The notes beneath the pieces are model-generated. The model did no database searches. It was not told the DNA's origin and was given only the letters and a program-made list of their open reading frames with translations. Of a DNA stretch of 64,000 bases, positions 3,223-53,617 are shown piece after piece. The stretch is from positions 1 to 64,000 of the forward strand of contig DAIDLH010000008.1 in assembly GCA_027449605.1 (NCBI GenBank). The letters run 5' to 3'. Made by a program: the position numbers and the translations under genes. Each line of letters begins with the position of its first letter. Within the stretch, counting starts at the first letter, position 1. Source of the DNA: Candidatus Muproteobacteria bacterium (GTDB taxonomy: Bacteria > Pseudomonadota > Gammaproteobacteria > Acidiferrobacterales > Sulfurifustaceae).

Positions 3223-3618
3223 TCAGCTGGCGAACCGCCGCCAGTAGGTTTCGCGCCAATAATAGAGAACGGTGGTGTCCGCCAGCGGATAGGAATCGGC
3301 GTAATCGACGCCGCGCTCGGGTTCCTCGATGTTGTCGTGCGCCGGGTCGAGCGGACGCCAGCCGGCTTCGCGCGGTTCTTCCGCGAACGGCACGCGGCCT
3401 TCGCCGCGATGGCGTCGTTCGGCGGTTCCGAGCTCGGCGTAATTCTGCTGCCCCTGTTCGAGCGACACGTGGTTGGCGCTGCCCGGCAGGCGCGGAAAGC
3501 GCAATTGCGCAAGGTCGTCCTCCCACAGGCAGATCGGGCACTTCTCGTGATTGCCGGGCTGGCGCTGAAACACGAGGTAGCCGCAGCAGGGACAGGGATA
3601 TTTCTGGCGGTCCATCAT
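3223..3618 (-). CDS. CPCC family cysteine-rich protein
   Basis: KYPCPCCGYLVFQRQPGNHEKCPICLWEDD motif. Confidence 0.85.
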   Translation of the reverse strand: MMDRQKYPCPCCGYLVFQRQPGNHEKCPICLWEDDLAQLRFPRLPGSANHVSLEQGQQNYAELGTAERRHRGEGRVPFAEEPREAGWRPLDPAHDNIEEPERGVDYADSYPLADTTVLYYWRETYWRRFAS

Positions 3619-36788: not shown

Positions 36789-36803
36789 AAAGACCCTGTT
36801 ACC

Positions 36804-36989
36804 CGACACTGGGTTTGACGTTTAAGCGGGAAGAGTCGCGATGAGTCTGGAAGAGATGGGATGGCGACACGAGACCGAGAAAACAACAGCTTAGGGAAGC
36901 CAGCGGCAGCTTGCTTCAATAATATGCCAAATCGCGGCCGACACTGGGTTTGGCGAAAGTCGCATTAAGGCGCGACACTTGGTTTGGCA
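36804..36989. repeat. Left-end transposase-binding-site array (L1 36804-36820, L2 36939-36955, L3 36973-36989)
   Basis: CGACACTGGGTTTGACG, CGACACTGGGTTTGGCG, CGACACTTGGTTTGGCA in the same orientation. Confidence 0.88.
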
Positions 36990-37145
36990 CCTTAAAATAC
37001 GTAAGTAGCTGATTTCCCGCTAAATCGAAAAATTTAGTTCCTGGTTTCACGGGGAGAAGTTGGACGAAGTTGGACGTTCGCGTCCAACTTCGTCATACAG
37101 CAATGATTTTTAAAAGGAATTGGCCGGAGAAATGATCGACGGTCA

Positions 37146-37583
37146 TCATGTATCGTCAACGCCGGCGGCTTCCTTTGTCTTCATCCAATACCGGTGTAAC
37201 GTGGTTTTTGAGGGTGCTCTACCAGGACCGAAGACATCGCGGCATGATTGCGCGAGCGCGACGAACCCCATCACCGGCAACATTTCATCGACAAAAGCCT
37301 TGATCGCAGCGTCGATCTCAATCTTTGATTTGCGATGTGGGCAGCGCGGTGGTGCCGTGCCGTGCGCAATACGATCTTCCCAGTAGCGAGCGATTTGTTT
37401 CCAAGACGGCGCGCGTTCCTTCCCGAACCGTTCGAGGCATGCACGCGCGACGGTATTGTAGGGCGCCTGAGGCGTGAGTGTATCGACAAATCCGCGGACC
37501 TCCGCGTCGAGCCTAAGGATTGATGGCTGACCAGGTCGATGCTCGCGGCGCCACTGCTTGCGCTGTTCCTCAATTGTGCTCAT
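37146..37583 (-). CDS. Phage protein with two tandem helical (HTH-like) modules
   Basis: DAEVRGFVDTLTPQAPYNTVARACLERFGKERAPSWKQIARYWEDR repeated as DAAIKAFVDEMLPVMGFVALAQSCRDVFGPGRAPSKTTLHRYWMKT. Confidence 0.7.
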   Translation of the reverse strand: MSTIEEQRKQWRREHRPGQPSILRLDAEVRGFVDTLTPQAPYNTVARACLERFGKERAPSWKQIARYWEDRIAHGTAPPRCPHRKSKIEIDAAIKAFVDEMLPVMGFVALAQSCRDVFGPGRAPSKTTLHRYWMKTKEAAGVDDT

Positions 37584-37989
37584 GGCTTTGACGGCGTTCA
37601 ATCATGCCCTTAAGGCCGGTAATCACCTTTGAAATAACCTCCTGGTCCGCAAACCGCAGAGACGAAACGCCGAAATAGTGTTCGAGCCAATGTCCCAACG
37701 CGCGCTCGTCACAAAACCCTGTGTATTGTTCCCACAGTATACGGACCAGGATCACCTGGGCGGGCGTGGCCATGCCTGGGCGATCACCGTAGGCGTTGCG
37801 CGCCGCATCCGATTCGAACCCCAGTAGCTTGAAGGCGCGCATCAGCTCGACAAACCCAGCATCGTCGAGTTCTTTGGAGCTGCAAACGCCGCCGCACGCC
37901 TCAAGCAATTTGCGATACTGCTCATCGGTCAGGCCGAGCTTGGCCTTGGCGACGTGGATCAGGCTGATTTTCTTTTTTGAGATCGACAT
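37570..37989 (-). CDS. Mu gp16/GemA family regulatory protein
   Basis: SLIHVAKAKLGLTDEQYRKLLEACGGVCSSKELDDAGFVELMRAFKLLGF is GemA/gp16-like. Confidence 0.85.
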   Translation of the reverse strand: MSISKKKISLIHVAKAKLGLTDEQYRKLLEACGGVCSSKELDDAGFVELMRAFKLLGFESDAARNAYGDRPGMATPAQVILVRILWEQYTGFCDERALGHWLEHYFGVSSLRFADQEVISKVITGLKGMIERRQSHEHN

Positions 37990-38543
37990 GTGGATGTTGG
38001 GCTGAGTTGAAATCTCACAATTCCGTCATTGTCGGTATCTGCATATACATCCATTCCGCGCGCATGGATGAGACGAAGCCAGGTCATCAACGGTTCGCCG
38101 CTTTGACCTATTTTTGTCTCGCGCACTATGCGATCACTGAGCGCGGCAGCTTTCTTCAGCCATTCTTTATCCCTAGCGGGATCGAGCGCACAGGCCAACA
38201 AATCCACGACCAATCCGATCGGTAGCGAAGAAGCAGGTTGCGTGCTGGGGTGAACGACGACATTATCTTTGGCTGGTGGTGCTGCCTCGTTCCGCTTTTC
38301 GGTCAGCAGGCGCATAAATCCTGCTTCGCAGTTTTCCCCGTCGCTTTTTATGCGCGACATATAATCGATACTGATTTCCAACAAATTATCAACGTTCGAG
38401 AGGTCATCGTCGCTCTCCCTGGCAAAGAGTGGATTGTCGATTGCGGCTTTCAGTAAAGTCTGAACCTTGTTCGTGTTGTACTGCAAATCAAGAAACGCAT
38501 TTAGAGTCGTCTCATATCTTTCGGCAGGGTTGCGTGTCGTCAT
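37959..38543 (-). CDS. Hypothetical phage early protein
   Basis: 194 aa ORF in the minus-strand early operon; no recognised domain. Confidence 0.6.
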   Translation of the reverse strand: MTTRNPAERYETTLNAFLDLQYNTNKVQTLLKAAIDNPLFARESDDDLSNVDNLLEISIDYMSRIKSDGENCEAGFMRLLTEKRNEAAPPAKDNVVVHPSTQPASSLPIGLVVDLLACALDPARDKEWLKKAAALSDRIVRETKIGQSGEPLMTWLRLIHARGMDVYADTDNDGIVRFQLSPTSTCRSQKRKSA

Positions 38544-38596
38544 GGATGATCCTCTACTCCGTGTGTGTTGAATGAATCGTTATCGAGCCCCGTCCC

Positions 38597-38848
38597 TTAT
38601 CGATTGCTACAGGAGACGCTCCCGGGGAATGGCTCGTTCCAGACCGTGATGTCGAGCCCATGCCGCATCCAGGCGCCACTGCATCGCCAGGGGCAGTGCG
38701 CGTTCGTCCACTGGAAGAAGGCGCGATATCTATGCAGAGAAACGCAATGGCGCTTGGTGCGCCCATCGCGCACGACGGTAATCACCGCACCGCCCGTGCG
38801 GCGGTACGCTTTGATCTGAGCAAGGGGCTCGCGTGTCTTATCGTTCAT
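38597..38848 (-). CDS. Hypothetical phage protein
   Basis: 83 aa; 4-nt overlap with the preceding gene. Confidence 0.5.
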   Translation of the reverse strand: MNDKTREPLAQIKAYRRTGGAVITVVRDGRTKRHCVSLHRYRAFFQWTNAHCPWRCSGAWMRHGLDITVWNEPFPGSVSCSNR

Positions 38849-39174
38849 GACTCACTCCCGAGCTTGGAATGCTTACAGCCCTTGCGGCAGGCCATATAGA
38901 GCGCCACGCGCGTCGGATTCGTGGTGGCGAAGGGCCGAGCCTGGTGGTCCTGGCAACGCTTCTTGGAGATCGCGCCGAGCACCGGGCAATCATGCGTCTG
39001 CTTCATCAGCGCGCCCATGACGCGGGCCTCGATGCGGTCCAAACGTCCGGTATAAGTGCCCTTTAAAACCTGATTTATCGTGGTCTGCGACATGCCGATC
39101 AGTCGCGCAACTTTATTTTGCGAGGTACGTTTGCACTCTTCGCGCAGTACTTCGATCCATTCGGCGTCAGTCAT
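38845..39174 (-). CDS. Phage HTH-domain protein
   Basis: WIEVLREECKRTSQNKVARLIGMSQTTINQVLKGTYTGRLDRIEARVMGAL. Confidence 0.75.
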   Translation of the reverse strand: MTDAEWIEVLREECKRTSQNKVARLIGMSQTTINQVLKGTYTGRLDRIEARVMGALMKQTHDCPVLGAISKKRCQDHQARPFATTNPTRVALYMACRKGCKHSKLGSES

Positions 39175-39878
39175 TGGTCACCTCGCTGCGTGGGGCACCG
39201 CCGTAATGACTGGCAATGCGTGATCACGTCTTCGGCAGCAAGGTCGAACTTCTTGCCTAAAATTTTCCTACCCTCCACTGGATCGATCAGCGCGAAACCG
39301 CCGCGGTTGTTGTCGCTGCGCCTCCCGCGCGCTTTATTTGCGACAAGCCCGATGCGCCTTGCTGCTCTGCGTGCCTCAGATTCAATGTTGCGGTTCCGTT
39401 TAATTGTTTGCCTTGCTTGTGGCCCCATGTTCGCGGTTGCAGGGTGGCTTTGCTCGCTTGCTGGCGCCGGCGGCCAATCGATTCCGTTCCTGGTTAGCTC
39501 GCTGTCCGATTGGCCGAACACTTCCCGCACGTTCGGGTCGTAGACCATACCTGATCGCTGCGGGATCGGCTGAAGTGGGCCGGTATTGCGTGCGAGTTGG
39601 AAGACGGTATATGAACCAGGGCGACCGGTCTCGCGTTTTTTGGCGATGCGCAGGTAGCCGGCTTGCACGAGCCGCCGCACGTAGAAAAAAAGATTGTCCA
39701 TTCTGATTTCTGAAGTCATTTTCAATTGCGGTAAGGTAAACATCCTTAAAATCCGCATGCAGCGCCAAGCTTTCGCGCGGTCATCGTTAAAAGGACGGCG
39801 ACGAGTATAACCACGCAATTTAGGAACCGGTTTGATATCCGCCTCAGGATGCACCTGGTCAAGGCTAAAGCTGGCCAT
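39171..39878 (-). CDS. Hypothetical phage early protein (winged-helix-like region)
   Basis: MASFSLDQVHPEADIKPVPKLRGYTRRRPFNDDRAKAWRCMRILRMFTLPQLKMTSEIRMDNLFFYVRRLVQAGYLRIAKK...; overlaps the MuB stop (TGATG). Confidence 0.7.
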   Translation of the reverse strand: MASFSLDQVHPEADIKPVPKLRGYTRRRPFNDDRAKAWRCMRILRMFTLPQLKMTSEIRMDNLFFYVRRLVQAGYLRIAKKRETGRPGSYTVFQLARNTGPLQPIPQRSGMVYDPNVREVFGQSDSELTRNGIDWPPAPASEQSHPATANMGPQARQTIKRNRNIESEARRAARRIGLVANKARGRRSDNNRGGFALIDPVEGRKILGKKFDLAAEDVITHCQSLRRCPTQRGDQ

Positions 39879-40615
39879 CAGGCGACCCTCGCGATGCGCG
39901 TTTGCGGTGCGCCTGACAACACGAAGGCGCGCCCGTTCCAATCCGCGGCGCCGAGGCGCTTGAGCGCGTGCTTTTTGGCATAGGATTCGATGCGCGACAG
40001 CCCGACCACCAGACCGCGCATGCTGCCGCCGGTTTTCTGATGCAGCTCGGCGAGCAGATCGTCCGACACCTCCACTTCGCACACCGTTTCGGCCAGCACG
40101 CGCGCATCCTCGACATCGGCCGGTTTGAATTCCACCCACTGCGAGATGCGCCCGGCCAGTTGCTCGCGGTGCATGATGCGCTGGCGGAAATCCTTCATGC
40201 CGATCAGGATCAACGGCATGGTGGAAAGATCATGCAGATCGCGCAGCGATTCCAGCAGGCGCTTGTTGCCGATGAGGTAATCGGCCTCGTCCACGAACAA
40301 CGGCCGGCCGGTGAGCGCGAGCTTATCGATGATGAAATCCATCATCGCGGAACAGCTCTGCAGCGGCTTGGCATCCAGCTCGCGCATGATCGCGCCGAGC
40401 ATGGCGCTCGGCTTCCATAAAGCCAGCGCGCGCACGTACACAGCGTGCACGTGGTTGGCGTACCAGGCGGCGGCCGTGGTCTTGCCGAGACCAGTGTTTC
40501 CGCAGATGAGGCCGATACCGGGCACGCCAATATCGCGCGAGGCGAGGGACTCGCCGGCCTGTGACAGCAGACGCAGATTTTTCACGGGGGCGATCGCGTG
40601 TTTCATTTTCGGCAC
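39878..40615 (-). CDS. Mu B-like AAA ATPase (transposition target selection)
   Basis: GNTGLGKTTAAAWYANH Walker A, PLFVDEADYL Walker B; downstream of MuA. Confidence 0.92.
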   Translation of the reverse strand: MPKMKHAIAPVKNLRLLSQAGESLASRDIGVPGIGLICGNTGLGKTTAAAWYANHVHAVYVRALALWKPSAMLGAIMRELDAKPLQSCSAMMDFIIDKLALTGRPLFVDEADYLIGNKRLLESLRDLHDLSTMPLILIGMKDFRQRIMHREQLAGRISQWVEFKPADVEDARVLAETVCEVEVSDDLLAELHQKTGGSMRGLVVGLSRIESYAKKHALKRLGAADWNGRAFVLSGAPQTRIARVA

Positions 40616-40626
40616 TCCTGATCGGA

Positions 40627-42795
40627 TTAACTCTTAGCTCCGAGCGCGCGCGAGACCATCACGTTCGCGCGATACTCGGGGGTGGTTTCGTAGGCACGCA
40701 TCCAGGCGACTTCCGCGTCGGTCAGATCACTCCGACGTGAAAGCGCCTGGTAGCGCGCCCACAGATCTTCGTCGTCCTGCTCGCGCGCAGCGCTCATGAG
40801 CCGCTCGACGATGGCGCCGCCGCGATCGAGCGCGTCTTGATTCGGCCGATTCGCCGGCGTGAGCGCCGCGACGGCCTCGGCGGCGGCCGCGAGCCCGGCG
40901 CTGTCATGCGTCTCGGCCGGCGCCGGGAAGAGGCTCAGTTTGCCGCTCTTGAGCGCGCGGTCGCGCAGGATGTCGTCCACGATGTCGTCGGTCTTGATCG
41001 CGCGCGCGGCGGCCTTGAGCGCGCGGCGTTCCTCCTGCACGCGTTGTTTCTGGATCTCGCGCCCGCGCGCGGCGACTTCCTGGCGGTTCATGCCGGTGCG
41101 CTCCGGGCATTCGGCGATACACAGGAATTCGCGGTCCGGACCGCCGAACACGTATATGCGCCCGAGGTCCTGTTCGATGGCATCGAAGCGCACCAGCACC
41201 GATTCGCCGACGTAGGCTTCGAGTTCGGGCGCGATGAACCAGGCGTTGTCGATCTGGATGCCCTTCTTTTGCACCGTGCGCATGCCGTGGTTGTCCGGCG
41301 CTTCGGCGAGCAAGATGTCGAGCGCGCGCTCGTCGTCGATGCGGCGCACCGACTCACGCCAGGCGGCGATGACCTCGAATGGCGTCTTGCCCTGCACGCC
41401 GTCGTGCGGCCGATGCAAATAGATGTCGTCACACCAGGCGTCGCAGAATTTCTGGAATTCGGCCGCCGTCATGTTGACCTCGATCACGGCATTACGCTGC
41501 ATGAGGCGGTCGGAGAAAGACCGGCGATCGCGGATGGCCTGGCGGTCCGCGACGTTATGGCCGATGAAACCATCGAGCAGCTCCACCAGGTCATGGGCGA
41601 AGCTGCGGAAGAAACGCTCGATATGCGGCTTGTGCCAGGGCTGGAACGGCGGGCACAGCGTCTGCTGGATCGCCAGCGAATCGAACACGCGCGTGATGTG
41701 GTGGCCTTTATAATCCGCGCCATTGTCGGTCTTGGCTTCTTCCGGCACGCCCCAATCGAGCAGCGCGTGCCGCACCAGCGTGGCGACCGCCGTGGCCTTG
41801 TTGGTCTTGCTGATAAAAAGCTTCGAGCGCCGGCTGAACACGTCGATTACGCCGAGCACCGTGTGGCGGCCGTCGGCCAGCATTACGTCGGCCGGCGTAG
41901 AGTCGAATTCCCACCGCTGATTGAGGCGCCGCACGCCTTCGCTTTGCGATCCGAAGGCGACCATGTAGCGGCCCTTCCAGGCGTCGGGATTGGCGAGCGC
42001 CATGAGGGTCTGCGCGTTCTCGGATTTCCACTGATTGATCCAGCGTTCCAGCGAGCGCATCGACGGCAGGGCGGTGTCGGTATTGCCAAGGCGCGCTTCC
42101 AGCATCTGCATGACGTGCGTGGCACGCGCATGCGGCTTGGCGGCGAGCAGGCCGACGATGAGATCGCGCACCGCGGGCTGTGTGTCGATCTTGCCTCGTC
42201 CTCTACTTCCTGCATAGCGGCCGGCAAGGCCATCAACTCCGTGATTTTTGATCTCTCGGCGCCAGCGGTTGAGTGAAGTCGGAGAAACATCACGCACTAT
42301 CTCGCGCACGAACGTGGGCATCTCGATCGCGCCGCAATTGTATTGCGCAGCGAATTGATGCTCGGAATCAGTGAGCGAGAGCTTATGCGTCTTTTGGAAT
42401 TCCTTGCGCGCGCGCAGGATGGCAAGCTTGGCGTCGAGCCGACGTTGGCCGCGTTCGGGGAGTGAGGTGGATTTCTTGAGGGATTCGAGGCGACGGTTAT
42501 GTGCCGCTTCAATTGTGGTCTGTTCTTTGACCTGGAGCTTCCGGCCTTCGTCCGCGCCGACTTTCGCGCTTGGAGATTCGCTCAACAGCTCGGCATGTTG
42601 CCGCGTGTGAAAAGCCTGGCGAACGGCCTCCGGCAGCGAGTTGATATGAAACTCAGTTTTGGACCCACCTTGAACCGGTATCTTCCGCGCCTTCCACCCC
42701 TCGCGGCGTCCACGTGCTTTCACCCGTTTCGCTGTGGTTGGCATTCCGGGCAAGCGCAATTCGGCAATCTCTTCAGGACAGAGCCATTCCCTCAT
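40627..42795 (-). CDS. Mu A-like DDE transposase
   Basis: MREWLCPEEIAELRLPGMPTTAKRVKARGRREGWKARK N-terminal Mu DNA-binding domain; catalytic WEFDSTPADVML, KTDNGADYK, PHIERFFRS. Confidence 0.94.
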   Translation of the reverse strand: MREWLCPEEIAELRLPGMPTTAKRVKARGRREGWKARKIPVQGGSKTEFHINSLPEAVRQAFHTRQHAELLSESPSAKVGADEGRKLQVKEQTTIEAAHNRRLESLKKSTSLPERGQRRLDAKLAILRARKEFQKTHKLSLTDSEHQFAAQYNCGAIEMPTFVREIVRDVSPTSLNRWRREIKNHGVDGLAGRYAGSRGRGKIDTQPAVRDLIVGLLAAKPHARATHVMQMLEARLGNTDTALPSMRSLERWINQWKSENAQTLMALANPDAWKGRYMVAFGSQSEGVRRLNQRWEFDSTPADVMLADGRHTVLGVIDVFSRRSKLFISKTNKATAVATLVRHALLDWGVPEEAKTDNGADYKGHHITRVFDSLAIQQTLCPPFQPWHKPHIERFFRSFAHDLVELLDGFIGHNVADRQAIRDRRSFSDRLMQRNAVIEVNMTAAEFQKFCDAWCDDIYLHRPHDGVQGKTPFEVIAAWRESVRRIDDERALDILLAEAPDNHGMRTVQKKGIQIDNAWFIAPELEAYVGESVLVRFDAIEQDLGRIYVFGGPDREFLCIAECPERTGMNRQEVAARGREIQKQRVQEERRALKAAARAIKTDDIVDDILRDRALKSGKLSLFPAPAETHDSAGLAAAAEAVAALTPANRPNQDALDRGGAIVERLMSAAREQDDEDLWARYQALSRRSDLTDAEVAWMRAYETTPEYRANVMVSRALGAKS

Positions 42796-42848
42796 GAGCT
42801 GCTCCTTTCGCGCGGTTCTTGAGCGCCGGCCAATAGCATGGACGGTGA

Positions 42849-43076
42849 TTACGCTGCCCGGTGTTTGTGAGGGTCTATGCCGGAAGCTTTGATAAGCCGG
42901 CCGCGGAGATCCCGCCCTCCCTTTCCATTCCATCCTCCGATCAAAGCCGCCCGGGCGGCAGCGGCGTTGATATCGTGCGCTTTACACCATGCTCCGAGCG
43001 TGGTGCCCTTGGAGATAAAGGCGATGCGCACTTTTCGATAGAGCCCTTGACCGGGAACTGCATTACCAATATTCAT
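42849..43076 (-). CDS. Small Ner/Nlp-like DNA-binding protein
   Basis: 75 aa; RKVRIAFISKGTTLGAWCKAHDINAAAARAALIGGWNGKGGRDLRGRLIKASG; first early gene opposite the repressor. Confidence 0.7.
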   Translation of the reverse strand: MNIGNAVPGQGLYRKVRIAFISKGTTLGAWCKAHDINAAAARAALIGGWNGKGGRDLRGRLIKASGIDPHKHRAA

Positions 43077-43125
43077 GGCGTTGTCTCCGAATTAAATAGA
43101 TACTTAATTTCATGTAAAAAACTTA

Positions 43126-43144
43126 TTGTTTATTTTATAAACAA
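43126..43144. promoter_or_regulatory. AT-rich palindrome TTGTTTAT-TTT-ATAAACAA, candidate repressor/Ner operator
   Basis: Perfect 8-bp dyad between the divergent early operon and repressor gene. Confidence 0.6.
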
Positions 43145-43165
43145 AATTACGTTATTGCAAACAAA

Positions 43166-43915
43166 ATGAAAACCATGGAGTTAGAGGGCGTTTTGGGCAG
43201 GTTAGCCTCGCTAACAGGCGCAAAAACCGATGCAGCCATCTCAAGCGAGCTGAGAGTCACTCCACAGACTCTCGCCAATTGGAAGAGGCGCGGGAAAGTG
43301 CCCTTCGAGGAACTCTGCGAGTTTGCTCAACGACGAGGGGTGTCCCTCGATTATGTCCTGTTCGGGAAAAAGGCACGAATCGATCCCGCCATCTTCAAGG
43401 AAGTACAGCGGGCATTAAGGGGCGAGCTAAGTGAGATGAGGGAATTAGATGACGAAGAATTCGACGCCTACACGGTAACCATCTACAACGAGATTCCATC
43501 AGTCGATGATCCGGAGATGCGGCAGCGAATTGTCGCCGGCTTTGTCGTTATTGCTGGCCGAGAGAAATTGAAGGAATTTATAAGAGTCTCAGAGTGGCTC
43601 ATACCACGATGGGAAACTTTGCCGCCGGAGTTGCGGCAATTTCCAAGTTTCAGCGGCGTCGAGAACCTAACGAAAGATGGTCTGCAAAAGTTGCGTGATG
43701 ACGCAATGAGGCGCCTGGAAGATCTCGATGCATTTCTTAAATCGCTATCTGCACAGAGCGTTAATGCCACGCAAAAGGACAATGCCGCCACGGAACCAGA
43801 AGCATCTCATGTAGTGACTTTGTCGAGACAGAAGAGCATCAAAGATCGCGAGCATAAGGTCGCGCCCAGTCGCGGTACTGTGCGCGGGGGCGGGAAGAAG
43901 AAAAAAAAGAAATGA
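43166..43915 (+). CDS. CI-type HTH phage repressor without recognisable S24 peptidase domain
   Basis: LTGAKTDAAISSELRVTPQTLANWKRRGKVPFEELCEFAQRRGVSLDYVLFG; Lys-rich C-terminus GGGKKKKKK. Confidence 0.82.
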   Translation: MKTMELEGVLGRLASLTGAKTDAAISSELRVTPQTLANWKRRGKVPFEELCEFAQRRGVSLDYVLFGKKARIDPAIFKEVQRALRGELSEMRELDDEEFDAYTVTIYNEIPSVDDPEMRQRIVAGFVVIAGREKLKEFIRVSEWLIPRWETLPPELRQFPSFSGVENLTKDGLQKLRDDAMRRLEDLDAFLKSLSAQSVNATQKDNAATEPEASHVVTLSRQKSIKDREHKVAPSRGTVRGGGKKKKKK

Positions 43916-44363
43916 AGTGCGTCGGCCAGCGGCTGCGCTGATGAGCCAAAAATACCCTTCCTCAGAGTTTTTCAGGCATCCCGTCAAACCGCCTACGATG
44001 CCCCAGGAGCGTTTCAGGGCTATCCCGCCCCGTTCGCAAAAAGATCGCATTTTTTAATAGGGGGTTAATAGGGTTCCCGGGGGTGTTCCGTGGGACTCTG
44101 TGACCCCATTTCCGACCCTGTCACATGTCTGGGCGACATTTTGGTTGTCAGCCCGCCCTCTTCCCGCCTGAATTCAAATCAATTATTAAAACTCTTTACA
44201 AGTATTCCAGTAAGTGAGGTTAGTAGACTTGTCGTCCTATTTTCGACAGGAGCGACCGCAACGTGTCAAAACATTCACATGCCCTTGCAGCAGCCGCGCC
44301 CATACTTGCCTGCGTTCTAACTGAAGCGTTTCAGTATGATCGGACTCTAGCACGCCGCGTAAC

Positions 44364-44447
44364 ATGCCCCTGATGCACTTCATCGTCATGATCGTTATTT
44401 TCTACACCGCCGCCCAACTATTCGCTGGCCGTGCGGTGAAACCATGA
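44364..44447 (+). CDS. 27-aa hydrophobic microprotein
   Basis: MPLMHFIVMIVIFYTAAQLFAGRAVKP*; ATGA overlap with the Mor-like gene at 44444. Confidence 0.5.
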   Translation: MPLMHFIVMIVIFYTAAQLFAGRAVKP

Positions 44448-44824
44448 AGCTCATGCCTGACGATCTGCCGGAGTCGCTGCGCGAGGTCATGGACCTCATC
44501 GGTCTGCAGGCGACATTCAGGCTGGTCCAGCATTTCGGTGGCGCGATCGCCGTGTACGTGCCACACCAGATCGAGACCGATCACCAATTGGCGGTTGCGT
44601 TGGGTCTGCCCGCCGCGCGCAAGCTCGCCGTCTACTATGGCGGCGCTGAACTGCGTAACATTCCACGCTGCGCTTTTGGGCTGCGGCGTATCCGCAACGC
44701 CGAAATCGACCGCCGCCATCGCGCAGGTGATTCCGCACTGAATCTCGCGCGCGCATTCGGCCTCACCGAACGCCAGGTCAGGACGATCCTCAGCGAAGCC
44801 CGCGACCGCACGGACGAGAAATAG
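44444..44824 (+). CDS. Mor-family transcriptional activator
   Basis: MKLMPDDLPESLREVMDLIGLQATFRLVQHFGGAIAVYVP...NLARAFGLTERQVRTILSEAR. Confidence 0.88.
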   Translation: MKLMPDDLPESLREVMDLIGLQATFRLVQHFGGAIAVYVPHQIETDHQLAVALGLPAARKLAVYYGGAELRNIPRCAFGLRRIRNAEIDRRHRAGDSALNLARAFGLTERQVRTILSEARDRTDEK

Positions 44825-44864
44825 GCAGTGTTCTGATCACCAACACATACCAGGAGAAAGAAAT

Positions 44865-45902
44865 ATGGCTAAGAATTCAAGCGTCGTTGCCGTAGCTGGA
44901 CCCACCCTTCATGAAAAACTCGATCACCGCGCGGAGCTGCGACAGCGCCTCGATGAGGTCACATTGGAATTTATGCATGCTCAGGAAACCGTGCGGAGAA
45001 AAAATTCCGAGTTGATCGAAGCCAAGGCCGAGATCGGCGGTTATCTGAATGCAGAAGGAAAACTCATCGATCAGCGTTATCAGGCGCGGCTTGAGGATGC
45101 GCGCACGCGGGTCGAGAAAACGCAATCGGCACTGGAAGCGGCGCGGAAAAAATCCTCGGTGCTGAAAGACGAAATCAATAGTCTGGAGCGCGAGCTGGCG
45201 CAGTCGCGCGGCGGCATTAAAAGTTCCGAAGAAGTTTTATCGTTTCAGCGCGATATCGGCGCAGCGCGGGCCGAAGTTACGCGCACCGAATCCCTCCTGG
45301 CAGAGCAGCACCGCCGCCGCGCCGATGCGCAAGCGCGCCTACAGGCCGACGAGCGCGGCGCGGAACGCGCAGACCTGGCCGCGAAGGTGGCTCTCGGAGA
45401 GATCGACGACAAGCGTTTGCAGGAATTCGATGCCGAAACCGAGAAGCGACAACAAGCGATGGATGGCGTGGCCGCCGAGGTGCTACCCATCATCGAGGCG
45501 GCGGATTCAGCGATTGCCGGACTGGAGCGACGGCTTGAAGCCGCGCGCCGCGCGCTGTCCGATCTGGAAGCCAAGCGCCCCGCCGTCCTCAGCATGTATT
45601 TTTACTCCCTGGTCGAAGTCGAGGGCGCGCGTTATCTGGAGCTTGCCCACGATCTGAACGACAGCTACCTCAAACTGATGGCTCTGGATGATCTTATCGA
45701 CGGCAATACGCTCAGATCGGATTTTCATCAACCGATGATGGAAATTCCAAACTTCGATCTCAACGCGCACCAGCCGCTCGGATCTCAGGCTGAAAAATGG
45801 ATGCTGTATAAACCGGGGCGCGCTGATTTTGATAAGGCGCGCGGGAAACTGATTGATCAAATGCGCGCACTGGGGATTGAGATAGATTTGGCGGGATGCT
45901 GA
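44865..45902 (+). CDS. Long coiled-coil phage protein of unknown function
   Basis: 345 aa; residues about 20-230 are heptad-like and charged, with a distinct C-terminal region; good RBS (aggagaaagaaatATG). Confidence 0.75.
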   Translation: MAKNSSVVAVAGPTLHEKLDHRAELRQRLDEVTLEFMHAQETVRRKNSELIEAKAEIGGYLNAEGKLIDQRYQARLEDARTRVEKTQSALEAARKKSSVLKDEINSLERELAQSRGGIKSSEEVLSFQRDIGAARAEVTRTESLLAEQHRRRADAQARLQADERGAERADLAAKVALGEIDDKRLQEFDAETEKRQQAMDGVAAEVLPIIEAADSAIAGLERRLEAARRALSDLEAKRPAVLSMYFYSLVEVEGARYLELAHDLNDSYLKLMALDDLIDGNTLRSDFHQPMMEIPNFDLNAHQPLGSQAEKWMLYKPGRADFDKARGKLIDQMRALGIEIDLAGC

Positions 45903-46039
45903 TGATCGCAAGGCTCAGCGGGGTCGCTCCTGATCCTGAGGGTCCCGCCATCTTTTTGCCGCTTCACGGCCTCGGCCTGAGGTTATCTTGAGCGGGCACT
46001 ACGCGCGCGGAATGGCTACTGCATCCGCGCGTGCTGTAT

Positions 46040-46150
46040 CACCCAACGATCGGTCGATTTCGTTGGGTGCTGTCGGTGCAGTAGGCGGGGCTGCCGGTGT
46101 CCGCAAGGCCCGGCGCGCTTCAGCAGCGTCTTTCGGCCCCGCCTATTTTT
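46040..46150 (+). ncRNA. Candidate structured RNA / intrinsic terminator (two successive stems plus U-tract)
   Basis: CACCCAACGA-10nt-TCGTTGGGTG, then TAGGCGGGGC...GCCCCGCCTATTTTT. Confidence 0.4.
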
Positions 46151-46174
46151 CTGTTTTAGTCACGAGGTATCCAC

Positions 46175-46477
46175 ATGCTCATTAATGACATCGGCGTGAA
46201 CGATCAAGAGGCGCTGGTGATCGTCCGCAAAAAAATCGCCACGGCACGGGCCGCGGTCGAGAAGGCCGAGGCGCAACTGCGGGAGTATGAGATGGAGCGT
46301 AAAGCCAATCTTAAGCCCACGGTAAAGGTGCTGTTAAAGCAGCGGAAGATGACCCTGTCACGCGGCAGGCTGGATCGTTTGAAGAAAGCATTAGCTCTCG
46401 CCGAGCGTGCCGAGCGCGAGCTGCTCGATCGTATTTCCAATTCACGGTCAGAGATCACGGCGAGGGAACAAAGATGA
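46175..46477 (+). CDS. Small coiled-coil phage protein upstream of the tape measure
   Basis: 100 aa; 4-nt overlap with the next gene. Confidence 0.7.
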   Translation: MLINDIGVNDQEALVIVRKKIATARAAVEKAEAQLREYEMERKANLKPTVKVLLKQRKMTLSRGRLDRLKKALALAERAERELLDRISNSRSEITAREQR

Positions 46478-48012
46478 GCGGCGCGAAGCTTGTATTCAAA
46501 ATCGAAGCTGTTGATAAGGCCACAGCGACGATCCGCGGGTTAAGCAATAACATCGCGCGATTGAGCAAAGTCGTCGCGGCCACGCGCAATTTTCAGAACC
46601 GACTCAGCAATGTTTCCGATACGCTGCGCAGCTTGCGCACCGGTTTCTTCTACGTCGCTGCGGCGGCCACCTCTGCGCTTTATCCGATGAAGCGCACGAT
46701 CGACAATCTCTCCGAGATCAACGACATCGCCGCCTCGTTCGGGATTTCGGCGCGCGAGCTGCAGCGCCTGACCGCGTCTCTGACGCTCGACGGATCGAGC
46801 ATCAGGGACGCGGCGCAATCGCTTAAGTTTCTGCAGCAGAACGCCGTCGCTGCGCTCACCGGCAGCGAGGAAATGGAGACCTGGTTCCACCGCGCCGGCA
46901 TCTCGGCCGAGTTCCTGAGCAAGAACCTTAAGGACCCGAAGGCGCTGCTCTATGCATTCGCCGACGGGCTCCAGCGCATCGAAACGCCGGCAGTGCGCGT
47001 TGCGATCGCGAACGCGGTGCTCGGCAAGAGCAGCGCGCGCGTGCTGCAGACGCTGTCGCGCGGATCGCAAGAGATCAAGCGCCAGGGCGACGAGGCTGAA
47101 CGGCTCGGCCAGATACTGGACGACAAGACCATCGCGGCGATGGACGCGGCGGGCGACTCGATCTTGACAATGCAACGCACCATCGGCGGCCTGACGGCTG
47201 TCATCACCGCCGCGGCGCTGCCGGTTATCGGGAAAATCACGAACGGCGTGGTTAGCTGGGTGCAGGCGAACCGCAAACTCATCGAGACTCGCGCGCAGGA
47301 GTTCTTCAAGTGGCTGCTCGATGATCTGCCTACTATTTGGAAAAACATCAAGAAAACCGCGAACACGATTTGGGAAATCGTGAGTGCAGTCAACTCCGTG
47401 GTGCAATCTTTTGGGGGCTGGAATACGGCGATCACTGTCCTCGCCGCGTTTATTGCCGCCAAACTTATCATCCAGCTCGCCGCCCTGACATTCTCTATTG
47501 CCAAACTCGGTATCGTGATGCTCGCAACTCCCCTTGGTGCGTTTGGGGCCGCCATCGGTGTATTAGGATTCCTCGTTTATGAGGTGATGTCGCACTGGGA
47601 CAAACTACCTGAATTCTTCAGCGGCATATGGGATGCCATCATCGAAGGCACTCGTGTTTTTATTAAAGTCGCGTTCTACCCACTGATCAAATTGCTCGAA
47701 TTGATTCATAGGCTCATGCCCGAGCGCATCCGCACCGGCACCGACTTTGGGCGCGGCCTGGGCGCGAGCCTCGACTGGGTCAACGGACGCCCGACCAGTC
47801 CGGTATTTGGTACCGGCGGCATGGCCAGCGGCAGGCCGACGGTAGCCTCGCCGTTCGCCGGTGGCGGCCGTGATAGCGTCGCTCAAACACTGGACGGCGA
47901 GATCAGAATCAAGCTCGACAGCGAGGGCCGCCCGCAACTGACGATGCTCAAGAGCAATACTAGGGGCGTGGATTTCAGCGTGGACATGGGCCGCACGCTG
48001 TCTATTCAATAA
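46474..48012 (+). CDS. Phage tail tape measure-like protein
   Basis: 512 aa; N-terminal FKIEAVDKATATIRGLSNNIARLSKVV, central hydrophobic segments, precedes hub and spike genes. Confidence 0.85.
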   Translation: MSGAKLVFKIEAVDKATATIRGLSNNIARLSKVVAATRNFQNRLSNVSDTLRSLRTGFFYVAAAATSALYPMKRTIDNLSEINDIAASFGISARELQRLTASLTLDGSSIRDAAQSLKFLQQNAVAALTGSEEMETWFHRAGISAEFLSKNLKDPKALLYAFADGLQRIETPAVRVAIANAVLGKSSARVLQTLSRGSQEIKRQGDEAERLGQILDDKTIAAMDAAGDSILTMQRTIGGLTAVITAAALPVIGKITNGVVSWVQANRKLIETRAQEFFKWLLDDLPTIWKNIKKTANTIWEIVSAVNSVVQSFGGWNTAITVLAAFIAAKLIIQLAALTFSIAKLGIVMLATPLGAFGAAIGVLGFLVYEVMSHWDKLPEFFSGIWDAIIEGTRVFIKVAFYPLIKLLELIHRLMPERIRTGTDFGRGLGASLDWVNGRPTSPVFGTGGMASGRPTVASPFAGGGRDSVAQTLDGEIRIKLDSEGRPQLTMLKSNTRGVDFSVDMGRTLSIQ

Positions 48013-48034
48013 CGGACGAGTGAGAGAACGGGCG

Positions 48035-49123
48035 ATGCCTGGCGTGGATCTCAGCGTTAACGGCAAGATTTATCGCGGATGGAAGTCCGTGCGCGTGGAG
48101 CGCTCGATCGAGAACGTGTGCGGATCGTTCGAGATTGGCACCTCCGAACGCTTGCTGGCCAATGATTGGGTGTCGGGATTCGACGAAGGGCTACTGGTAG
48201 ATGTCGGCAACGAATGCACGCTCGCTGTCGATGGCACGCCTCTTGTTACCGGCTACGTGGATGACATCGCCCGTGAGATCGATGCCTCTGCTCATGCAGT
48301 ATCGATCAGCGGGCGAGACAAGACCGGCGACCTGGTTGACTGTTCCGCAGTCTACAAAACCGGCATTTTCTATAATTTCGATCTGGCGTATATAGCGCAG
48401 GCACTCCTTAAGCCGTTCAAAATCGGCCTCTTTATAAATACCGATCTTGGAGCACAGTTCCGAAAAGTAAGAATCGAACCCGGCGAGAGCGTCTTCGAAC
48501 TCTTGGACCGCTTGGCGCGCCATCGCGGCGTGCTGCTCACGACCGATGGCCGGGGCAATCTTGTCATTACGCGCGCCGGTGTCGGTTTAAACACGGAAGA
48601 CGCTAATCTTAAACTGACCAGGATCAGCGAGGTTTTGGTCCTGGGCAATAACATCTTGAGCATGCGGATCGAGAGAAGCCAGCGCGACCGTTACAGCGAG
48701 TACACCGTCAAAGGTCAAATCCCGCTCAATGACAACATCACTCCCGTATACAACGATCGACTGAAAGCAGTCGCAAAGAACGAAACCATCGCCCGATATC
48801 GCCCCTTGATTATTGTCGCAGAGCAGCCAGATTACATCGCCAGATTCAACCTGCGCGCGAAATGGGAGCGCAATGTGCGTGAGGGCCGGTCAACGCGCAT
48901 CACTGTGACGGTGCAGGGTTGGCAACACGCAGATGGCTTCTGGACGCCGAACCGCATCGTCCATCTCATAGCCAAACCGCTGGGGATCGAGGGGGGCGAT
49001 CTGCTCATCGTCTCCGTGACGTACACCTTGGATGAAAATGGAACGCGAACCGAGATGTCGCTCACCTGGCCGTGGGCATTCGATCCGTTGCCGACGCCCG
49101 AGAAGGAGTTTCTGATTCCATGA
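48035..49123 (+). CDS. Mu gpP-like baseplate hub protein (gpD/gp44 family)
   Basis: VDLSVNGKIYRGWKSVRVERSIENVCGSFEIGTSER...SISGRDKTGDLVDCS. Confidence 0.9.
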   Translation: MPGVDLSVNGKIYRGWKSVRVERSIENVCGSFEIGTSERLLANDWVSGFDEGLLVDVGNECTLAVDGTPLVTGYVDDIAREIDASAHAVSISGRDKTGDLVDCSAVYKTGIFYNFDLAYIAQALLKPFKIGLFINTDLGAQFRKVRIEPGESVFELLDRLARHRGVLLTTDGRGNLVITRAGVGLNTEDANLKLTRISEVLVLGNNILSMRIERSQRDRYSEYTVKGQIPLNDNITPVYNDRLKAVAKNETIARYRPLIIVAEQPDYIARFNLRAKWERNVREGRSTRITVTVQGWQHADGFWTPNRIVHLIAKPLGIEGGDLLIVSVTYTLDENGTRTEMSLTWPWAFDPLPTPEKEFLIP

Positions 49124-49737
49124 GGGCGTTCAGCAAACTTCTCGCGCCACTTGCGCGGCGACTGCGCTTAATGATTGGTCGCTCGACCATCGTTCTCACC
49201 AACGATAATAAGAACCTGCAAGAGTTGCAGGTTACTATCCTGAACGATGATGTTGACGATTCTATCGAGCGGTTTCAAGAGTACGGATTCACGTCCCGCC
49301 CGAAACCCGGCGCCGAGGCGATCATCTTGTGTGTGGGAGGCAGCCGCGCTCACGCCATCGCCGTGGCCGTCGATGACCGACGTTACCGCCTGAAGTCACT
49401 CGCCGAGGGTGAAGTCGCGTTATATACAGACGAAGGCGATTACATCCACTTCAAGCGCGGTCGCGTGATCGAGGTCATGGCCGGCGCGAAGGTGAAGATC
49501 ACCGCGCCCGAAGTCGAGGTTATCGCGAGCACGAAGGTCACGCTGGACACGCCGCTCGCGCACGTGACGGGCGCGCTGCAGGTGGACGGCCCAGCGGCCG
49601 TGACGGGCGCGCTATCGTCCGCGACCTCCGTGGCGGACCCGAACGGCACGATGCAGTCGATGCGGAACATCTATAACGGGCACATGCATAACGATCCGCA
49701 AGGCGGAACAGTTGGAACGCCGAATCAAACCATGTAG
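49120..49737 (+). CDS. Mu gp45-like baseplate spike protein
   Basis: LQELQVTILNDDVDDSIERFQEYGFTSRPKPGAEAIILCVGGSRAHAIAVAVDDRRYRLKSLAEGEVALYTDEGDYIHFKRG; 4-nt overlap with gpP. Confidence 0.92.
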   Translation: MRAFSKLLAPLARRLRLMIGRSTIVLTNDNKNLQELQVTILNDDVDDSIERFQEYGFTSRPKPGAEAIILCVGGSRAHAIAVAVDDRRYRLKSLAEGEVALYTDEGDYIHFKRGRVIEVMAGAKVKITAPEVEVIASTKVTLDTPLAHVTGALQVDGPAAVTGALSSATSVADPNGTMQSMRNIYNGHMHNDPQGGTVGTPNQTM

Positions 49738-49759
49738 GTCATCAGGGACGCGAGAACGA

Positions 49760-50107
49760 ATGTCAGATACCGATTATCCTGAAATTTTGTCTGATCTCTC
49801 TTCCAAGGTTTGCAACACCTTGGTGAACACCGGGATGGCAAAGCCACAGGCACACGCCGCCGCTTCTGCTGTTACGGAGCATATTTCAGAGCACTGGGGC
49901 GGTCAGCTTATCTACATCCCGAAAGCGTATAAATTCAAGCTGTCTGCCAAGTATCAGGAAATTCTTCGCAAATGGACCGGGCGCAACGCTGGAGAGCTGA
50001 GCCGGGAGATGGGAGTTTCTGTGCAACGCATTTATCAAATCATCAAAGAAGAGCGGCAACGCCAAAAATTGAATAAATCCAAGGAACGGAAATTCCATGA
50101 CCGATAA
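49760..50107 (+). CDS. Second Mor/C-family transcriptional activator
   Basis: YPEILSDLSSKVCNTLVNTGMAKPQAHAAASAVTEHISEHWGGQLIYIPKAYKFKLSAKYQEILRKWTGRNAGELSREMGVSVQRIYQIIKEE. Confidence 0.86.
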   Translation: MSDTDYPEILSDLSSKVCNTLVNTGMAKPQAHAAASAVTEHISEHWGGQLIYIPKAYKFKLSAKYQEILRKWTGRNAGELSREMGVSVQRIYQIIKEERQRQKLNKSKERKFHDR

Positions 50108-50861
50108 CTGTTGCCGTACCAGCTTTGCCGCCTGCATTCTCGAACTCGCCTCAGGCGAACGCGAACTCCAGCTTTTGCCCGCCGGAAAATTCCGCGCACA
50201 TGACGGACGCCCAACCGATATACCCGCCTGGTACATCGATGCCGCGCTCGCGCAACGCGTAATCGCCGCCACGCAGGCGCGCACCAATCCTCTCGTCATC
50301 GACTACGAACACCAGACGCTCAATGCCGAGAAGAACGGCCAGGCCGCGCCGGCGGCCGGCTGGTGGGACGCGAAGAACATGGTCTGGCGCGAAGGCCAGG
50401 GGCTGTTCGTCACCGATGTGACCTGGACCGAGAAAGCCAGCGCCATGATCGCCGCGGGCGAATACAAGTTTTTTTCGCCGGTCTTCAAATACGACAAGAA
50501 GACCGGCGCGGTGACCGCGATCCTCATGGGCGCGATCACCAATTACCCCGCGATCGACGGCATGGAGACGCTCGCTGCTCGCGCCGCCGCCCGGTTTTCA
50601 ACGCAACCGGAGCAGGGTTCTAAAGAAGACGAGATATCGGCGGAGGAACTCGCCGTTTGCCATTTGATGGGGTTGGAGCAAGACGAGTACATTAGGAGCC
50701 GTGCGGCGTCCAGAAAACATGATTCGGCGATCGGTCTCGCAATCACCAGAGGCGGTCAGCCTGCCTGCGATGGAGAAGGCGGCCTGAGCGCGGAAGAGTT
50801 ATCCGTGTGCCGGTCGATGGGCCTTCCCCCGCACGAGTACAAGAAGAATCGCGCACGGTAG
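50097..50861 (+). CDS. Mu gpI-like phage protease/scaffold
   Basis: ELQLLPAGKFRAHDGRP...NPLVIDYEHQTLNAEKNGQAAPAAGWW...YKFFSPVFKYDKKTGAVTAILMGAITNYPAIDGMETLAA. Confidence 0.92.
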   Translation: MTDNCCRTSFAACILELASGERELQLLPAGKFRAHDGRPTDIPAWYIDAALAQRVIAATQARTNPLVIDYEHQTLNAEKNGQAAPAAGWWDAKNMVWREGQGLFVTDVTWTEKASAMIAAGEYKFFSPVFKYDKKTGAVTAILMGAITNYPAIDGMETLAARAAARFSTQPEQGSKEDEISAEELAVCHLMGLEQDEYIRSRAASRKHDSAIGLAITRGGQPACDGEGGLSAEELSVCRSMGLPPHEYKKNRAR

Positions 50862-50903
50862 AGTAGAGTGGAAATGAACGGGACTTACAACAGGGGTTTA
50901 AAG

Positions 50904-51344
50904 ATGCGTTACTGGCTTCTTACGGCGTTCCTTCTGGTCTTCTTTGCGCCTGCCCATGCGGAGATCACCGCTAAGGACTTCGACCTCAAGGAATGCCACT
51001 GGCGGCATTCACTTGATTCGCGCGATTGCGAGAGCCACCGAAACGATCCCGCCGCGTTTAAGAAGTACATCGCTTATCTGAATTCTCTGCCTGGCAAGAC
51101 AGACCTAGAAAAAATGACTGAGGACATGCGGAGGTTCTGCAAACAGAAAGGCTACCGAGGTGGAGCGCCGGGCGAACGTATTCAGATCGTGGACTATTGC
51201 TCAACCCTCGACGGGTTCTACCCGGAACAGATTAACGTCATCCGCTCGACGGAGGGCGAGACTTGGGTCTTTAGAAAGGGTTTTAATCTGCTCTATGTGG
51301 ACCGGCAGTCCGGGATGATCAAGCAGGTAGTCACGAGCAGGTAG
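50904..51344 (+). CDS. Secreted protein of unknown function, putative prophage cargo
   Basis: MRYWLLTAFLLVFFAPAHAEITAKDFDLKECHWRHS...; clear signal peptide, four Cys in the mature region. Confidence 0.7.
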   Translation: MRYWLLTAFLLVFFAPAHAEITAKDFDLKECHWRHSLDSRDCESHRNDPAAFKKYIAYLNSLPGKTDLEKMTEDMRRFCKQKGYRGGAPGERIQIVDYCSTLDGFYPEQINVIRSTEGETWVFRKGFNLLYVDRQSGMIKQVVTSR

Positions 51345-51395
51345 CCCGCCAAATGCCGCCCCGACCAGGCGCACACAGTCGTTGATCCCCTTTTT

Positions 51396-51419
51396 ACGGG
51401 GGCTCAATACCCCGTTTTG
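51396..51419 (+). terminator. Putative terminator at the right end of the element
   Basis: acgggg-gctcaata-ccccgt followed by tttgt. Confidence 0.55.
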
Positions 51420-51474
51420 TAGCCCACTATCTTGCGTCCCCGCAGCGAAAACAGCCTCATTTTTCGTCCCCGTT

Positions 51475-51513
51475 CGCCAAACCCAGTGTCGCCGTTCGCC
51501 AAACCCAGTGTCG
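51475..51513. repeat. Right-end transposase-binding-site array (R2 51475-51491, R1 51497-51513)
   Basis: Two identical CGCCAAACCCAGTGTCG copies with 22-bp spacing, inverted relative to the left-end copies. Confidence 0.88.
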
Positions 51514-51643
51514 CCTTACAGACCCCACCCCATCTCGCCGCACCCCTCAATACCCAGCCCATTTTTCACTCGCGTGGGGGCTGGATATAGTTTTTATTTA
51601 AGTTTATATTCTAACCACCTGTATTAGCGGGGGATTCAATATA

Positions 51644-53617
51644 ATGATAAGCGCGCAAAGGCTGGAAGAAAGGCCCCGGTTGGCCATCAATGAATTCAGC
51701 CGGCGATTGGGGGAATACAAACACTGGCGCGACGAACTGATCGAAATCCTCATCGAATATCAGAACTGGGTCGAAGGCCACGGACTCGCGAGCGGCGATG
51801 AGGATTTGCAGCTTTACGAACTCATTGACGCGCTCCGTTCCGACAAACTCACGATCGCCCTGGTGGGCGAATTCTCCCGCGGCAAAACCGAACTCATCAA
51901 CGCCATCTTCTTCGCCGATCAGCGGCAACGGCTGCTGCCGTCGGAAGCCGGTCGCACCACGATGTGTCCGACCGAATTACGCTACGATGCAACGGAACCG
52001 GCGTGCCTGAAGCTGCTGCCCATCGAGACGCGCAAAACCACCGCCACGATTTCGGAATACCGGCGCACGCCCGCCGCCTGGACCGTGATACCGCTGGATC
52101 TCGACTCGCCGAAAAAAATTGCCGAAACCTTTTTGCAGATCGTCAAAACCAAACCGGTCACCGTGGGCCAGGCCGAGGAGATCGGTCTTTATCATCCGGA
52201 CGTGGAAGCCATGTCGTACATGCTCAACAGCGATGGCATGGTGGAGATTCCCGTCTGGCGTCATGCCATCATCAATTATCCGCACCCGCTGCTGAAACGG
52301 GGACTGGTGGTGCTGGACACGCCGGGGCTCAACTCGCTCGGCACCGAACCGGAATTGACGTTGAGCATGCTGCCGGGCGCGCAGGCGGTGCTGTTCGTGC
52401 TCGCCGCCGACACCGGGGTAACCCGAACCGATCTGGAAATCTGGAAAAACCACGTCTGTCTCACCAAGGGAGGCAGAGCCGAGGGGCGCCTCGTGGCGCT
52501 GAACAAAATCGACACGCTGTGGGACGAATTGAGCAACAACACGGCCGTCGCCACGACCATCGCGCGCCAGACGCAGGATACGGCGCGAACGCTCGGCATC
52601 GGCAAGAACCAGGTGCTGCCCGTCTCCGCGCAAAAAGGCCTGCTTGGCAAGATCAAATCGGACTACGCGCTGATCGATCGCAGCGGTTTGCCGATGCTGG
52701 AAACCACGTTGTCGAACGACATCATTCCGGCGCGCCAGGAACTGCTGCGCGAGCGCGTGATTCACGACATCGGTTCCATGGTCGGAACCACCAGCGCGAT
52801 GATCGAGGCAAGGCTCAACGCGGTCGAGGAACAGATCGAGGAACTGCGGGCGCTCAGCGGCGAGAACCGCGAAGCCATCCAGAATCTGGTTGCGCATTGG
52901 CGCGATGAAAAACAGTCGTATGACCGGACCCTCGCCAGTTTCCAGAATATGCGCGCGGTGCTGTCCGACCAGATCAAGATTCTGCTCGATTACCTGAGCG
53001 TCGAAACCTTCGACGAGCTGGCACAGAGGAGCCGTCAAGACATGGCGGGGTCGTGGACCACACCGGGTCTGCGGGACGGAATGAAAGTCCTGTTCGACGG
53101 GGTTCTGGAAATCATGGAAAAAGCCAACAAACAGACCCAGCAGATACGGTCCCTGGTCCAGTCCGTCTACAACAAATTTCACAGCGAACACGGGCTGGCA
53201 AAGATAAAGCCCATGAATTTTTCACTGCTGCCGTATCGAAGCCAGATGCAGAAACTGCACGATGAGGCCGAACATTTTCGCAACAGTCCGAGGATGATCG
53301 TCACCGAACAGCATTTCGTGGTGCAGAAATTCTTCGTCACGCTGGTGGGCCGGGCGCGCGAGCTGATCCAGGAATGCAACGCCGCCGCCCGCGCCTGGAG
53401 CAAGGCGATCATGGGGCCGATCCTTACGCAGGTACGCGAGCACAAGACCCTGATGGATCAGCGCCTCGATAATCTGAAGAAGGTGCACGAGGATTTTGCC
53501 AATCTGGGCGGCCGCATCGCCGAACTGGAGTCCAACCACCAAAATCTTGAAAACCAGCAGTTGGTCATCCGCAACATGCTGCGCAAGATCAACCAGCCGC
53601 TCCCGCTGGACCCGTAA
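51644..53617 (+). CDS. Dynamin-like GTPase family protein
   Basis: 657 aa; GEFSRGKTELINAIFF P-loop, VVLDTPGLNSLG G3, ALNKIDTL G4, long C-terminal helices. Confidence 0.88.
   Translation: MISAQRLEERPRLAINEFSRRLGEYKHWRDELIEILIEYQNWVEGHGLASGDEDLQLYELIDALRSDKLTIALVGEFSRGKTELINAIFFADQRQRLLPSEAGRTTMCPTELRYDATEPACLKLLPIETRKTTATISEYRRTPAAWTVIPLDLDSPKKIAETFLQIVKTKPVTVGQAEEIGLYHPDVEAMSYMLNSDGMVEIPVWRHAIINYPHPLLKRGLVVLDTPGLNSLGTEPELTLSMLPGAQAVLFVLAADTGVTRTDLEIWKNHVCLTKGGRAEGRLVALNKIDTLWDELSNNTAVATTIARQTQDTARTLGIGKNQVLPVSAQKGLLGKIKSDYALIDRSGLPMLETTLSNDIIPARQELLRERVIHDIGSMVGTTSAMIEARLNAVEEQIEELRALSGENREAIQNLVAHWRDEKQSYDRTLASFQNMRAVLSDQIKILLDYLSVETFDELAQRSRQDMAGSWTTPGLRDGMKVLFDGVLEIMEKANKQTQQIRSLVQSVYNKFHSEHGLAKIKPMNFSLLPYRSQMQKLHDEAEHFRNSPRMIVTEQHFVVQKFFVTLVGRARELIQECNAAARAWSKAIMGPILTQVREHKTLMDQRLDNLKKVHEDFANLGGRIAELESNHQNLENQQLVIRNMLRKINQPLPLDP

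Follow-up and report, generated by a model that had tools for sequence, protein, structure and literature searches.

The late region at positions 44444–51344 forms the right part of a Mu-type transposable element, the ends of which fall outside that region. As the best explanation, with a probability of about 0.4, it belongs to a reduced, mosaic element resembling a natural mini-Mu, of a family kept by selection, which is particle-deficient and may follow a helper-dependent scheme. The window analysed is a stretch of 64,000 nt (positions 1 to 64,000) of contig DAIDLH010000008.1 from Candidatus Muproteobacteria bacterium (GCA_027449605.1), a 2.8 Mb assembly that is 92% complete.

The whole element covers 36797..51520 (14,724 bp) and has TG...CA ends, reading TGTTACC at 36797 and CTTACA at 51520, with the 5-bp target duplication GACCC directly repeated outside (36792–36796 and 51521–51525). 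A motif of about 17 bp, CGACACTGGGTTTGGCG, is present in five copies that are inverted between the element ends. Three lie at the left end on the + strand (36804–36820, 36939–36955 and 36973–36989), where they are probable transposase binding sites, and two at the right end on the - strand (51475–51491 and 51497–51513). These repeats are specific to the element: a genome-wide search (2.8 Mb, at most 2 mismatches) returned one extra match, carrying two mismatches. Inverted, repeat-bearing TG...CA ends and a 5-bp duplication are thus found together with a MuA-type transposase and a MuB-like ATPase, as in a Mu-type element. The insertion site is empty in each of the eight congeneric genomes, in which the flanks lie within approximately 0.4 kb of each other. 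The element therefore inserted cleanly and probably not long ago. The first-pass annotation had named pseudogenes in sister strains as a possible sign of decay; the eight congeners hold no pseudogenes and are without the element altogether, which favours maintenance. A dynamin-like GTPase gene (51644–53617) adjoins the insertion and is found in 9/9 genomes of the genus, most of them with three paralogues.

The early block (repressor–ner–A–B...gemA) is inverted in its entire orientation relative to Mu. It consists of a CI-type repressor (43166..43915, + strand; PF07022, 7.8e-11) and, all on the - strand, a small protein in the Ner position (42849..43076; phrog_15281, 2.7e-15), a MuA-type DDE transposase (40627..42933; phrog_310, 4e-110; HTH_Tnp_Mu_1, rve and Mu-transpos_C), a MuB-like ATPase (39878..40615; phrog_296, 2.6e-52; AAA_22) and a GemA-like protein (37570..37989; PF06252, 1.3e-20). 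At the left end, the same strand encodes a 151 aa protein without a family match (37146–37601) and without similarity to the second Mor protein, Mor2. The transposase gene is uninterrupted and present as a single copy in the genome, and the D...D-35-E pattern is readable from its sequence. Its closest phage relatives are the transposases of HS6 (37%) and RC1/RS1 (33%).

The reduced layout is seen again in one further copy, L004 (IMGVR_UViG_3300037515_000571), a partial contig of 8151 bp. It carries the Ner-position gene, the repressor, Mor1, the coiled coil, the small coiled coil, the tail tape measure protein (TMP), gpP, gp45, a gpI remnant and the secreted protein. As noted by the first-pass annotation, the late genes of the window are arranged in the order Mor, coiled coil, small coiled coil, TMP, gpP, gp45, second Mor, gpI and signal-peptide protein. 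All are located on the + strand. The late activator Mor1 (44444..44824; PF08765, 2.2e-10; phrog_836, 9.6e-31) is 93% identical to that of L004, and the coiled-coil protein (44865..45902) is 48% identical to its counterpart. The stop codon of the small coiled-coil gene (46175..46477) overlaps the start of the TMP gene (ATGA), which encodes 512 aa (46474..48012; phrog_2276, 6e-30). Next come the gpP baseplate hub (48020..49123, likely start ATG 48035; phrog_177, 4.6e-107), the gp45 spike (49072..49737; PF06890, 8.5e-26; Phage_spike, 1.1e-6) and the Mor2/C-type activator (49712..50107; PF08765, 1.4e-25), the last of which is missing from L004. The region ends with gpI (50097..50861), a protease domain without the scaffold half, and a protein with a signal-peptide-like N-terminus (50868..51344), 92% identical in L004. 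For the latter, no relative with a solved structure was found, and its predicted model has a mean pLDDT of 52.

To look for head, packaging, lysis and further tail genes, profiles were made from nine gpP loci (L003 and L038–L045; family labels checked with Pfam) and phage HS6, and run on every stop-to-stop ORF of at least 20 aa in the element and in L004. The positive controls were recovered (gpP, 1e-111; gp45, 1e-69; gpI, 1e-32). Among these ORFs, no major capsid protein (MCP), portal, terminase or minor head protein was detected, nor a sheath, tube, gp41, N, gp46 or gp47, nor a holin or endolysin. The initial failure to recognise a capsid, portal, terminase or sheath is therefore upheld, as the search of these ORFs gave no hidden set, and the element falls short of a complete Mu-like phage with its head, portal, terminase and full tail. 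In 9/9 of the comparison loci, N lies next to gpP, with gp46, gp47 and sheath around, making their absence here exceptional. One of these loci, L003, from a Desulfatitalea MAG contig, is identical to IMG/VR contig L005 across 13.2 kb; the two represent a Mu-like phage whose tail genes are complete. Three candidates for hidden functions gained no support. The predicted model of the coiled-coil protein gave only weak coiled-coil matches among viral structures, none with E <0.001, arguing against a hidden capsid or packaging gene; profile similarity to N is likewise absent from this protein, as is similarity to a gp41-type chaperone from the small coiled-coil protein.

With intact hub and spike genes, the element might be thought to build a tailocin or effector-delivery device by itself. 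This is very improbable, unless the missing parts are encoded in an unassembled portion of the genome: sheath, tube, wedge proteins and fibres are all lacking from the element, which thus has none of the sheath, tube and baseplate wedge genes of an R-type tailocin, and the host genome (92% complete assembly) yielded no sheath gene. The earlier judgement that a functional tailocin is unlikely from these genes alone thus holds. A Mu portal was not found in the host genome either, which is a weak negative since the portal profile matched no control genome.

Much of the layout is common to the two copies. Over the TMP–gpP junction, all 70 bp compared are identical and N is absent from both. The two copies also have the gpI end and the beginning of the secreted gene in common; the gp45–gpI interval differs. 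The shared N-less junction together with the shared gpI end and secreted-gene start indicates that most of the reduction predates the split between the element and L004. A search for the same gene order in other genomes had been proposed at first reading as a way to separate maintenance from decay. The order recurs in L004, which favours the former.

A simple counting method was used to estimate dN/dS between the two copies. The values are far below 1 in the tail core: 0.04 for TMP codons 55–260 (p 5e-21), 0.16 for TMP codons 420–512 (p 3e-6), 0.37 for gpP (p 9e-6) and 0.43 for gp45 (p 2e-3). In addition, these three genes are intact in the element, and neither copy has a stop or frameshift in them. 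Because the layout is already reduced in both copies, purifying selection on the TMP core, gpP and gp45 most simply acted on elements that had already been reduced. An exception would be a later gain of the tail-core genes from complete phages, which the N-less junction argues against. The second copy of the layout and the selection on the tail core suggest, from sequence comparison, that the element is maintained, perhaps as a helper-dependent, satellite-like one, and is more than mere debris.

Synonymous divergence is very uneven, at approximately 0.1–0.17 in Mor1, gpP, gp45 and the secreted gene and approximately 1 or more in the repressor, the coiled coil and the middle of the TMP gene. 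This unevenness suggests that recombination among related elements shaped the two copies. Within the TMP, residues 76–260 and 420–512 are near-identical to L004, while residues ~260–420 (window 47250–47740) are strongly diverged. This diverged stretch is hydrophobic, its synonymous sites are saturated, and it looks like a swapped cassette.

The right end may have a different history. The gpI of the element matches PF10123 at positions 2–147 of 330 only, a protease domain after which the gpI C-terminal motif occurs twice. This motif (ISAEELAVCHLMGL... / LSAEELSVCRSMGL...) is duplicated within the truncated gpI at window positions 50700–50860. For gpI, the top matches come from D3112-like Pseudomonas phages, and gpP matches myophage tails, which points to a mosaic. 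According to PMC2628397, the transposable phage KS10 carries its protease gene directly after Mor, so the Mor2–gpI adjacency alone is no anomaly. Mor2–gpI is plausibly the native start of a head module that came from a different Mu-like phage and was attached downstream of a tail fragment. The first-pass annotation held that no single deletion from a Mu-like map would place gpI after gp45; more than one rearrangement is indeed needed, but the oddness of the order was overstated in view of the Mor–protease order in KS10.

In L004, gpI is a frameshifted remnant of the scaffold, and Mor2 is absent. This decay of gpI, truncated in one copy and frameshifted in the other, is evidence of ongoing loss among the late genes. 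It is quite possible that the element is a decaying prophage or passive transposon, in which blocks of late genes of a mosaic Mu-like phage were deleted, the tail genes are passengers, and persistence relies on transposition and vertical descent. TMP, gpP and gp45 are neighbours in a normal tail, and flanking deletions would leave the trio together. The great rarity of the element fits the same explanation. Besides L004, no copy was found in the sampled collections (369 class genomes, 57 order genomes, and IMG/VR and GTDB scanned by exact peptides) with the transposase, coiled coil, Mor1 or TMP as query, and none by the end repeats. The secreted-protein query matched L004 and one 35-residue fragment, and a plasmid search gave nothing but generic gpI matches. 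One other copy, partial, from very large collections counts against a maintained element. Several observations are nevertheless difficult to reconcile with decay: the low dN/dS in the TMP core, gpP and gp45 after a shared reduction, the absence of stops and frameshifts from the tail-core genes of both copies, the clean loss of N with a conserved junction, and a non-coding RNA segment more conserved than its neighbours. In summary, selection, recurrence and the clean junction favour a maintained element; a decaying prophage is favoured by the rarity of the element, by the decay of gpI and by the fact that no helper is known. The two readings remain close.

The non-coding segment mentioned above contains two tandem predicted structured RNAs on the + strand. 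Each is predicted to fold into a three-way junction with a T run after it; copy 1 lies at 45887..45962 and copy 2 at 46081..46156, the latter immediately before the operon of the small coiled coil and TMP. Their counterparts in L004 lie at 3280–3355 and 3474–3548. Non-coding positions 46001–46100 are approximately 95% conserved relative to L004, compared to approximately 60% for the adjacent coiled-coil gene. Folding of the RNA region beats that of shuffled sequences (z -3.5), with a few compensatory changes between copies and between elements. Rfam c4-2 weakly matches both L004 copies, with 24.7 and 23.2 bits (E 0.005 and 0.013) against a gathering score of 41, and does not match the copies of the window. 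As no RNA copy reaches the curated Rfam score, the RNAs are not assigned to the c4 antisense family. A model built from the four RNA copies found one marginal match elsewhere in 321 genomes. The tandem RNAs may control the TMP operon.

If the element is indeed maintained, the following scheme can be proposed. Its own transposase would move it within the cell, and particles of a Mu-like contractile-tailed helper would carry it between cells. At a late stage of helper growth, expression of the TMP–hub–spike operon would be set by Mor together with the two tandem RNAs. TMP, hub and spike might then form a tail-initiation core, and the helper would supply the tube, sheath and baseplate wedges that assemble onto it. 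The outcome would be chimeric tails, by analogy with those of PLE satellites. In its fullest form, this describes a satellite derived from a transposable phage, which combines Mu-type transposition and the use of helper particles with an RNA-gated TMP, hub and spike replacing those of the helper, and which arose independently of PLEs; this full version is doubtful. Against the helper scheme, no close full relative was found, searches of the host genome gave neither a helper nor a sheath gene, no packaging-redirection gene was recognised in the element, and the small coiled coil does not resemble a gp41-type chaperone by profile.

Another possibility might be that the partial tail proteins poison the tail assembly of incoming Mu-like phages and so protect the host. 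Mobile elements are known to block tail assembly, as in the Tai systems (PMC11364771), PLE11 Rta targets the TMP of the helper (PMC12987554), and the element does encode a TMP and hub without partners. The known blockers, however, are dedicated small proteins, unlike TMP, hub and spike, and a search against defence families gave generic coiled-coil matches and nothing more, leaving interference improbable.

Satellites that make chimeric tails with their own TMP and hub are a recent report, from PLEs (PMC12987554). If the preferred reading of a maintained, helper-dependent element is true, an unrelated, transposition-based element with the tail-initiation core alone would suggest more than one origin of the chimeric-tail trick, and would offer a simple test case for mobile elements that steer tail assembly. 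If decay is the correct explanation, the element nevertheless illustrates clearly how a Mu-type element without particles could stay mobile until recently.

Compared to Mu, HS6, RC1/RS1, KS10 and D3112, the element has the MuA-type transposase, MuB-like ATPase, GemA and Mor in common, as well as the TG...CA ends, the 5-bp duplication and homologues of gpP, gp45 and gpI. It differs from these Mu-like phages in having no head, packaging, lysis, sheath, tube, N, gp46 or gp47 genes, in its size (14.7 kb versus approximately 35–40 kb) and, relative to Mu, in its inverted early block. Mini-Mu, i.e. engineered Mu or D3112 derivatives, likewise has two ends and transposition genes with the late functions removed. 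The element, in contrast, is natural, and its Mor genes, its structured RNAs and an operon for the tail core have been kept and conserved; packaging by a helper is putative here. The c4 and c4-2 antisense RNAs (Rfam clan CL00128) resemble the RNAs of the element in having an outer stem around two hairpins and a T-rich 3' side, but lie upstream of an antirepressor, whereas in the element a tandem pair precedes a tail operon. In the PLE satellites of Vibrio cholerae, TMP, chaperone and hub are supplied by the satellite itself, the tails are chimeric and an sRNA is conserved (PMC12987554). Like them, the element has its own TMP and baseplate hub and a conserved, putatively regulatory RNA without a complete tail or head. 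PLEs integrate site-specifically whereas the element uses Mu-type transposition and adds a spike, and in the place of the tail chaperone, upstream of TMP, the element has a small protein without gp41 profile similarity. There is no evidence for common descent of the two; chimeric tails have been reported for PLEs, while the element is known from its genes.
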